A DNA stretch of 64,000 nt from positions 186,001-250,000 of the forward strand of contig JAPLKS010000007.1 in the NCBI GenBank assembly GCA_026387915.1, given 5' to 3'. This document shows positions 2,083 through 4,735 of this stretch, piece by piece (the stretch's first letter is position 1; each line of letters begins with the position of its first letter). The DNA is from Gemmatimonadota bacterium (GTDB lineage: Bacteria; Gemmatimonadota; Gemmatimonadetes; Gemmatimonadales; Gemmatimonadaceae). Made by a program: the position numbers and the translations under genes. Under the pieces are notes generated by a model, which ran no database searches, was not told the DNA's origin, and worked only from the letters and a program-made list of their open reading frames with translations.

Positions 2083-2256
2083 TTTGAACTACCTATGGGC
2101 GGTCGATGTTGATCGATAGACCGTTCACACAGCAGGGATTGCCGCGTGTGCCGGGATAGTCAATATGCCGAAGTGGCAGGGGTGAGGGTAGGCTCAGAAC
2201 AGCTGACAGCCACTACCGGAACCTTGGCGGGCGAGATTCGTTAGTCTCACTACACC

Positions 2257-4269
2257 GTGCATACCCTCCGAATCCTCCTGGCCCTCGGGCCGCTCGTCGC
2301 CTCGTTCTTCCGAGACCGCAAACGCTGGCTCTGGTGGGGCGAGCGGATGCCGCGCACCCCCGAGTTCCACGCCCGCCGGGCCAAGTTACTGGTCAGTTCG
2401 ATCGCCGGGTTGGGCCCCACCTTTGTAAAGCTTGCGCAGGTCTTTGCCTCGCGCGCCGACCTCATTCCGGAACCGTACATCGGCGAGCTGGGGACGCTCG
2501 TGGATGCGGTGCCCCCCTTCCCTGTTTCCGTCGTCGAACGACTCGTCTGCGCCGCCTATGAGGTGCAGCGAGTAGAAGAGGTGTTTGAGACGTTCAACCG
2601 CACGCCGGTGGCCGCCGCATCGCTTGGGCAGGTGCATCGCGCCACCTACCGCGGACGCGACGTGGCCGTAAAGGTCCTCCGCCCGGGGATTGAACGCATC
2701 ATCGAACGCGACCTCGCCTCGGCGCGGCGCATCCTCGGCTGGGTGAACACGCGCTGGCCGCATCCGCACGTTGCGGGCTTAGTTGCGGTCGTGGACGAGT
2801 TCTCCGCGCGCATTCACGAGGAGCTCGATTTCCGACTCGAAGCCGAGTTCGCAGAGGAGATCGGACGAAACTTTGCCACGAACAAGCGGGTGATCATCCC
2901 CGGCGTCGTGCACGCGCTCACGCGGCAGCGCGTACTCGTGCTCGACTATATGGATGGCACTCGCATCGACAAGCTGAACGCCGGCACCGTGGACGTGAAG
3001 GGACTCGTGGCGACGCTGGTTGAAGTGTATGTGCAGATGATGCTGGTGGACGGTCTCTTTCACGCCGACCCACACCCCGGCAACCTGATGGTGGCGCCTG
3101 ACGGCCGGTTGATCCTGCTCGACTTCGGCATGGTGGTGCGCGTAGATCAACCCACGCGCGCTAAGCTGACGCGCACCGTCCTCGCGGCCATTCGGCGCGA
3201 CCCCAATGGTGTGGCCGATGGCTTCCGCGCGATGGGGCTGGTACTCCCTGGCACCGATGAAGAGACGGTGCACCGCCTCGCCGTGTTGCTCATCGTCAAT
3301 GCGTTCGCCAAGACCACGACGCAACAGCGCATCGACGCGCTGCTCGCCGATCGCGTGATGAAGACGATCTTTGATTTTCCGATCATTCTGCCGCGCGACA
3401 TGGTGTACTTCGCCCGCACCGCCGCGCTCATTGAAGGGGTGGGCACCAAGTACGATCCGTATTTTCAGGCGATCCCCATTGCGAGTCCGGTCGTGCTGCG
3501 GATGCGCACCCGCATCCTGCGCTCGGTGGGCGAGGCGGCCCAGCCAAACGCAGCCGAAATCGCGACCGTCGCCGGCTATGCGCTAGGCACGGCGGCCCGA
3601 TGGGTCGTAGATTCTTTTGCTTCCGTACAAACCACGTTTACCACGAGGTCCGCTTCGATGCGTCGTCGCCCAGGCTCCCCCGCTGCGTTGCTCGCCCTGC
3701 TCGCGCTTCCGCTCGCACTTGCTTCACGTTCCGCGCAGGCACAGGCGCTTCCCACGGTCGATCAACAAGTGGCGGCGGCGTTGCTCCCGCTCCCAAAGGA
3801 TTTGCAGGCGGGCGCCCTCGTGATGGGCTACAAGACCAAAGGGAAACTCGAGACGATTCGCGACGGCAAGAACGGTATGATCTGCCTGGCGCTCTATGTG
3901 GTGCGCGATAATTTTCACGTCGCCTGCTACCACAAGGGACTGGAGCCGTTCATGGCCCGCGGCCGCGACCTGCGCGCGAGTGGCGTGAAGGACCCTGAGG
4001 TGGACTCGGTGCGGTTCCGCGAAGTGCGCGCCGGCACGCTCAAGATGCCGACGGCAGGCTCGCTGTATTCGCTCACGACGACGAAAGAAAACTTCGACCA
4101 GGCCACCAACAAAGTGAAAGATGCGCGCCCGCTTGCCGTGGTGTACGTGCCCGGCGCGACGCCCGAAAGCCTCGGCCTCTCAGCGGCTCCGCTGCCGAAT
4201 CAACCGTGGATCATGTTTCCGGGCACGCCCAAGGCGCACATCATGATCATTGGCTCGATGCAGCCGTAA
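2257..4269 (+). CDS. UbiB/AarF (ABC1) family kinase-like protein fused in frame to a secreted domain
   Basis: The 670-residue frame starts with GTG. Residues 1-460 are a UbiB/ABC1 atypical kinase with an alanine-rich loop (VAAASLGQVH), a catalytic loop HADPHPGN near residue 269 and a DFG near 289. Family members support ubiquinone biosynthesis or lipid homeostasis, usually at membranes. The diagnostic KxGQ motif is KLAQ here (residues 58-61), an uncommon glycine-to-alanine change. From residue 468 the frame looks like the start of another protein: MRRR, a hydrophobic stretch and an AQA cleavage site, then about 180 residues of unrecognised secreted domain. GAGG lies 9 bp before ATG 3658, so a separate in-frame product starting there is plausible. 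The 3' end overlaps the convergent peroxiredoxin gene by 23 bp. Confidence 0.85.
   Translation: MHTLRILLALGPLVASFFRDRKRWLWWGERMPRTPEFHARRAKLLVSSIAGLGPTFVKLAQVFASRADLIPEPYIGELGTLVDAVPPFPVSVVERLVCAAYEVQRVEEVFETFNRTPVAAASLGQVHRATYRGRDVAVKVLRPGIERIIERDLASARRILGWVNTRWPHPHVAGLVAVVDEFSARIHEELDFRLEAEFAEEIGRNFATNKRVIIPGVVHALTRQRVLVLDYMDGTRIDKLNAGTVDVKGLVATLVEVYVQMMLVDGLFHADPHPGNLMVAPDGRLILLDFGMVVRVDQPTRAKLTRTVLAAIRRDPNGVADGFRAMGLVLPGTDEETVHRLAVLLIVNAFAKTTTQQRIDALLADRVMKTIFDFPIILPRDMVYFARTAALIEGVGTKYDPYFQAIPIASPVVLRMRTRILRSVGEAAQPNAAEIATVAGYALGTAARWVVDSFASVQTTFTTRSASMRRRPGSPAALLALLALPLALASRSAQAQALPTVDQQVAAALLPLPKDLQAGALVMGYKTKGKLETIRDGKNGMICLALYVVRDNFHVACYHKGLEPFMARGRDLRASGVKDPEVDSVRFREVRAGTLKMPTAGSLYSLTTTKENFDQATNKVKDARPLAVVYVPGATPESLGLSAAPLPNQPWIMFPGTPKAHIMIIGSMQP
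3658..4269 (+). other. Possible independent secreted protein encoded by the 3' part of the UbiB-like gene
   Basis: This marks an internal in-frame ATG (3658) preceded by a GAGG ribosome-binding sequence. From here the product is 203 residues with a classic signal peptide: positive n-region, Ala/Leu h-region and an AQA cleavage site near residue 29. The mature part has two cysteines about 14 residues apart and ends with HIMIIG. I do not recognise its family. It may be made as a separate exported protein, as a fusion, or both. Confidence 0.5.
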
Positions 4270-4735
4270 GCAGCTTGAGCGCGGCCTGAACCTCGGCAGC
4301 ATGGCCGTCGGGGTTCACCTTCTCAAAGAGTTGCTTCACTTTGCCGTCGGGGCCGATGATAACCGTGGTGCGCTGCACGCCCCAGTACTTGCGGCCGTAA
4401 AACAGCTTCTCGACCCAAATTCCAAACTGCTCGGCGAGCGCGTGGCCCTCATCGACGAGCAGCGTGAACGGAAGCTCGTACTTCTTCCGGAACTTGGCGT
4501 GTGACTTCGCCGAGTCCGGTGAGATGCCGAGGATCACGGCCTTCGCGCGTTTGAACCGAGGAAAGAGATCGCGAAACTCGCACGACTCCATGGTGCAGCC
4601 CGAGGTGTCGTCCTTGGGGTAGAAGTACAGCACGACCCACTGACCTCGCAGGCTTTTGAGCGCGACCCGCTCGCCGGTGTCGGTTTCGAGATCAAACGCG
4701 GGTGCCAACTTCCCAACTTTCACGCTCGTGGTCAC
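4247..4735 (-). CDS. bcp: Thioredoxin-dependent peroxiredoxin, BCP/PrxQ type
   Basis: A 162-residue AhpC/TSA-family thioredoxin-fold protein of the bacterioferritin comigratory protein (PrxQ) type, which reduces hydrogen and organic peroxides using thioredoxin. The signature FYPKDDTSGCTMESC carries the peroxidatic Cys47 and a candidate resolving Cys52, the CxxxxC spacing of the atypical two-cysteine subgroup. No signal peptide, so it should be cytoplasmic. The start is GTG at 4735, with GAGG about 7 bp upstream. Its 3' end overlaps the convergent UbiB-like gene by 23 bp. It is followed at close range by the TIM-barrel gene on the same strand. Confidence 0.95.
   Translation of the reverse strand: MTTSVKVGKLAPAFDLETDTGERVALKSLRGQWVVLYFYPKDDTSGCTMESCEFRDLFPRFKRAKAVILGISPDSAKSHAKFRKKYELPFTLLVDEGHALAEQFGIWVEKLFYGRKYWGVQRTTVIIGPDGKVKQLFEKVNPDGHAAEVQAALKLLTAASSQ

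Follow-up and report, generated by a model that had tools for sequence, protein, structure and literature searches.

In Bradyrhizobium japonicum, cytochrome b and cytochrome c1 are made from fbcH as one chain that is cut by signal peptidase; this cleavage has been established by experiment, and both parts are members of one complex. Internal in-frame initiation is a known general class of arrangement, giving a long and a short product. A third point of reference is the ABC1/UbiB/COQ8 family of atypical kinases (PF03109), in which, according to PMC4718504, the KxGQ motif is located in an N-terminal extension and an Ala-rich loop replaces the Gly-rich loop.

The window (the whole 64,000-nucleotide stretch of Gemmatimonadota DNA analysed here, from a group of bacteria living in soil and fresh water) contains an open frame of 670 codons at positions 2257–4269 of the plus strand, with a GTG start, in which an ABC1/UbiB kinase runs without a stop into a secreted-type protein, referred to here as X. 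The first-pass annotation had described this frame as a kinase followed by a secreted protein with its own signal peptide and ribosome-binding site from residue 468, and that description was confirmed. The parts of the frame are as follows.

2257–3612, plus strand: ABC1/UbiB kinase part, residues 1–452, with the GTG start and the ABC1 domain at residues 81–320
3608–3613, plus strand: TAGATT inside the last kinase codons, a candidate −10 element for X and a lead only
3613–3657, plus strand: linker of 15 codons, residues 453–467, without a stop; lower pN than pS in the five genome pairs for which both were calculated
3645–3648, plus strand: GAGG, a Shine-Dalgarno (SD)-like site for the internal start, with an anti-SD pairing energy of −7.1
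3658–3741, plus strand: internal ATG and signal-peptide-like segment MRRR...SAQA, residues 468–495, a probable signal-anchor in the fused chain
3742–4269, plus strand: predicted exported domain X, residues 496–670, followed by the stop; without a Pfam family, and with a confident fold model that has no clear PDB match

The kinase part matches the Pfam ABC1 domain (PF03109) at residues 81–320 with 1e-65 and a score of 221.8 bits, against a gathering score of 22.9. An Ala-rich loop (AAAS) is found at residues 119–122, VAVK is present, HADPHPGN and DFG are intact, and the solved relatives include COQ8A (4ped/5i35, 4.5e-13) and 5yjz (2.2e-35). The score for TIGR01982, the NCBIfam UbiB equivalog, is 302.8 of 487.55 bits and thus below the curated cut-off. 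In place of KxGQ the kinase carries KLAQ at residues 58–61, where Lys and Gln are kept and Gly is replaced by Ala; because of this, the predicted protein is filed as an ABC1-domain protein and not as a canonical UbiB. The first-pass annotation had read this motif correctly but gave it too much weight. Among 125 UbiBs of the order examined, 119 had a readable motif, which was KxAQ in 110, KxGQ in eight, and KxTQ in one, so that KxAQ is a lineage trait and the usual state of the order's UbiBs, although the motif is usually called family-defining. A degenerate or unusual kinase on account of KLAQ was ruled out by the same counts. The kinase has no two-helix C-terminal membrane tail, and its sole hydrophobic segment after the kinase fold is the signal-peptide-like one. 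At the 5′ end (window 2240–2259), the GTG start is without an SD-like site (anti-SD pairing energy 0.7) and has TTAGTC about 10 bases ahead of it; together these features suggest a leaderless kinase mRNA. At the 3′ end, the frame shares its last 23 bases (4247–4269) with the end of a convergent minus-strand ORF (4247–4735), named by eye as peroxiredoxin-like (Bcp-like).

Kinase and X lie in one open frame in 7 of the 18 genus genomes searched, comprising the window genome (G000) and G017, G014, G003, G007, G001, and G016. One of the six others is 97% identical to the window and the rest are 63–78% identical; their records include CANIWQ010000091.1, JACQBG010000020.1, and CAIRBD010000652.1 (Gemmatimonadetes bacteria). 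Adjacent kinase and X genes with a stop between them, for which the first-pass annotation had proposed a homolog search, occur in 11 genomes, of which three belong to the same genus and eight to another genus of the family. The separated pairs of G011, G129, and G121 are in the same frame and the other eight are out of frame; two neighbouring genes with a stop are the arrangement in the sister genus. The loss of a stop from the window genome by a local read or assembly error, which the annotation had allowed for, has next to no likelihood: although this genome is in 23 contigs and most of the relatives' records are titled MAG, the open frame recurs in six independent genomes, with linkers that differ in sequence and, by whole codons, in length, and consistently fused homologs at 63–97% identity therefore rule out such an error. 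As no stop lies between kinase and X, the fused chain is translated unless recoded. A conserved fusion in one genus would, taken alone, be a modest variant.

The signal peptide was assessed by hydropathy and pattern. From Met468 (nucleotide 3658) the chain reads MRRR, then a hydrophobic core, then SAQA↓Q, and GAGG ends 9 bases ahead of the ATG at 3658. The internal ATG is kept in all seven fused genomes, with pairing energies of −5.9 to −7.1; of the 132 other in-frame ATGs in the seven frames, 12 show pairing of this strength, and the energies at 11 unfused X starts range from 0.4 to −6.6. A cleavage-like site of the AxA↓Q type is likewise kept in all seven (as ANG↓Q in G007). The linker is 14, 15, or 16 codons long across these genomes, with few indels and with differences of whole codons. 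Its pN/pS values in the five pairs were 0.06/0.41, 0.37/0.65, 0.23/0.63, 0.27/0.65, and 0.36/0.53; pN was below pS in every pair, which fits a translated linker, and the ratio (∼0.15 in one pair and 0.37–0.68 in the rest) indicates weak constraint. The linker is short and constrained by the SD-like site, which may account for part of this signal. The first-pass annotation had posed an exclusive choice between an exported fusion and two genes sharing one frame. Both alternatives are supported at once, because the sister-genus pairs keep the stop, seven genomes lack it, and the X start and its SD-like and cleavage-like sites are retained in all seven.

The explanation preferred here, and considered fairly probable, is that kinase and X form a polyprotein cut by signal peptidase, with independent initiation of X at 3658 in addition. 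Two neighbours, an ABC1/UbiB kinase and a Sec-exported X, would have merged into one frame on loss of the stop between them. Ribosomes starting at 2257 would then make a single chain of kinase, linker, signal-anchor, and X, of which the kinase part would remain cytosolic; the former signal peptide would become a membrane-inserted helix, N side inward, and X would be exported. Signal peptidase would probably cut at AxA↓Q, so that X is set free and the kinase keeps the helix as its C-terminal membrane anchor, and X alone would probably also be made from the retained start at 3658 (Met468). From the anatomy of the frame and the retention of its parts we infer this membrane topology, the cleavage, and the use of both starts, as well as a benefit to the cell and selection. 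The whole-chain structure model is poor (mean pLDDT 53.4) and therefore gives no contact between the kinase and X halves.

A retained internal start is also expected if only free X matters. In this main rival explanation, loss of the stop was neutral, useful X comes only from its own start (perhaps from its own promoter inside the kinase gene), and the kinase tolerates a C-terminal extension. The contig has a G+C content of 0.64, at which stops are rare and frames between close genes open by chance, and the retention of the X start and SD-like site in all seven genomes fits neutral loss as well. So does the retention of GTA GAT, giving TAGATT, as the Val-Asp codons before the linker in five fused genomes (G000, G017, G014, G003, and G007), given that GTA is rare in the fused frames (2 to 9 of about 70 Val codons). 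TAGATT at 3608–3613 was not reported by a sigma-70 consensus scan, and a promoter and terminator scan returned one site of each kind, about chance level; as an internal promoter for X, TAGATT is a lead only. Persistence of the fused state across species 63–78% identical speaks against neutral loss, which on this and the evidence below appears rather unlikely.

The history of the fusion is also in part consistent with neutral loss. On the UbiB tree with outgroup rows, three changes are required to account for the fused state, and the UbiB data reject a grouping of all fused rows as a single clade (AU p = 0.00012); according to these data the fused state is not one clade and therefore changed more than once. 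One clade of the seven fused is not rejected by the X data (p = 0.476). The two data sets together do not establish a single clean origin of the fusion. When the UbiB and X trees were compared over 18 adjacent pairs, the neighbouring genes gave different trees for G011 and for G015/G010. The X tree groups G011, G015, and G010 (95/92), a clade that the UbiB data reject (p = 0.00066), and the UbiB placement of G015/G010 is not firmly rejected by the X data (p = 0.0687). Replacement of X alone in the G011 and G015/G010 lineages is possible from these comparisons. Either there were several stop losses, or there was one loss, after which X was replaced or separated in these two lineages.

Tails were examined in 125 UbiBs, 105 from the family and 20 others from the order; two had no domain that could be read, and contig ends truncated several. 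Tails longer than 130 residues numbered 11, all among the 105 family UbiBs, and comprised the seven X fusions and the UbiBs of G139, G149, G004, and G012. Every one of the 11 has a hydrophobic export-like segment, about 35–60 residues past an RSLGE-like point. In G139, a single draft genome, the UbiB frame continues as a SnoaL_3-like domain (E = 0.018, short of the Pfam cut-off). The junction, from GRAWRA to the site after AAQ, contains no ATG, GTG, or TTG, so that the exported part is made only through the kinase unless a rarer start is used; in G142 and G148, a relative of this SnoaL-like protein lies near the UbiB with its own start. The UbiB of G149, a single-contig genome, runs in frame into a beta-lactamase-fold hydrolase domain (Pfam, 2.3e-49), and has GTG codons that might serve as starts. 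Lipoprotein-like sequences without a Pfam match follow the UbiBs of G004 and G012, the latter being short, with LSAC, and perhaps not a full protein. A two-helix membrane tail was found in nine of the 105 family UbiBs and in ten of the 20 further UbiBs of the order (19 in all), and the fused UbiBs belong to the type without it.

For comparison, ORFs in two stretches (368.8 and 400 kb) were signal-peptide-like at the N terminus in 67 of 290 and 66 of 311 cases, and had an internal signal-peptide-like start in 35 of 290 and 31 of 311; judged by eye, the internal starts seem to belong for the most part to multi-pass membrane proteins or to sheet cores, leaving only a handful as candidates for true fusions. 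Set against the N-terminal frequencies, the export-like character of all 11 long tails among the 105 UbiBs argues against neutral stop loss, as does the G139 junction without ATG, GTG, or TTG. That UbiBs of related genomes are fused to other exported proteins, which the first-pass annotation could not have seen in the window, suggests a bacterial polyprotein that is split at the membrane. This repeated joining at the same place, in few genomes and against a base rate judged by eye, lifts the finding above a single fusion. A broader form of the polyprotein reading is put forward tentatively, as possible but doubtful: Gemmatimonadaceae UbiBs without the two-helix anchor would repeatedly capture a downstream signal sequence as an anchor, at the same point past the last kinase helix, and cleavage of the polyprotein by signal peptidase would yield a membrane-anchored kinase and the exported protein in free form. 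If this is true, at least four unrelated partners (X, SnoaL-like, beta-lactamase-fold hydrolase, and lipoprotein-like) would mean that the selected thing is the signal sequence and not the partner.

Two further observations come from G149. At about 2316959–2317963 of its contig C1 (L246), a membrane protein is in frame with a lipoprotein signal and a sequence named by eye as NosL-like, and is possibly another fusion of the same kind as those of the UbiBs. On the same contig, three ORFs at about 2343088, 2406432, and 2410772 have a common internal stretch, the gene being repeated within 70 kb. In a plasmid search, no record covered 80% of the query at any one place.

X of the window has no Pfam match and no NCBIfam match. 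Searched against Pfam, 52 X members gave scattered matches only, in one or two members each (best 0.0033), and the X profile gave a best E of 0.21 against PDB sequences. The AlphaFold2 model of X from the 52 sequences is confident (mean pLDDT 94.4), and a Foldseek search with it returned no solved structure at E below 0.2 (best E 0.2). VIA structure comparison gave a best Z of 3.4, with beta-sheet cytochrome c prime and Anbu tied. A relationship to P460/cytochrome c prime is not claimed, the Z values being 2.3–3.4 and the alignment rows shown containing no CxxCH. In the alignment, the invariant residues of X include CYH, G-R, and A-H near the C terminus. As to its role, we commit ourselves to export only, as predicted from the signal-like segment. 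No second copy of X was found in the window genome at E up to 0.001. Elsewhere, 80 X loci (L124–L203) were collected from records whose titles include Gemmatimonadota, Bacteroidota, Acidobacteriota, and Verrucomicrobia. A UbiB lies in the flank of 16 (six fused and ten separated by a stop) and is absent from that of the other 64, for some of which the contig ends at this point. The 64 loci and the several phyla point to X as a widespread, separate, predicted exported protein family without a name. Gene callers label such fused frames as one odd kinase, by which the exported family is hidden.

The order of domains in the frame, with the kinase in the cytosol, a single hydrophobic segment after it, and X outside, and the confident modelling of X as a domain would also suit a permanently fused receptor-like kinase, in which X would be a tethered periplasmic sensor regulating the kinase across the membrane. 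This is improbable: the cleavage-like site is kept in all seven fused genomes, X is a separate gene in most relatives, as in the 64 loci without UbiB in the flank, and the partner varies, with unrelated exported proteins in the same place in G139, G149, and G004.

The way in which ABC1/UbiB kinases arrive at the membrane and stay there is relevant to their action on lipid pathways, and the role of the anchor becomes testable in a natural set of closely related kinases, some without an anchor, some with two helices as anchor, and some with a borrowed signal sequence. The polyprotein reading, if correct, would clearly exemplify the recurrent formation of polyproteins in bacteria, with a signal peptide serving also as the anchor of the upstream protein. 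Nothing on internal signal peptides was on topic among the literature matches listed. Compared with the ABC1/UbiB/COQ8 family, the window kinase is alike in its Pfam match (1e-65), AAAS loop, VAVK, HADPHPGN, and DFG, but differs in its TIGR01982 score below the cut-off, in KxAQ instead of KxGQ, and in being followed by a predicted exported domain and not by the two-helix tail of the 19 other UbiBs of the order. Internal in-frame initiation is resembled in the internal ATG with an SD-like site, retained in seven of seven genomes, whereas the short product of the window differs in having its own predicted export signal and in being a separate gene in relatives. The closest likeness in layout is to the fbcH polyprotein, as in both a single open frame encodes two proteins, the second of them exported, and an internal signal sequence, in the window one recognized by pattern, separates the two. 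The two differ in that the parts of fbcH belong to one complex and are separated by a cleavage established by experiment, whereas in the window frame cleavage is inferred and kinase and X are partners without a known link.
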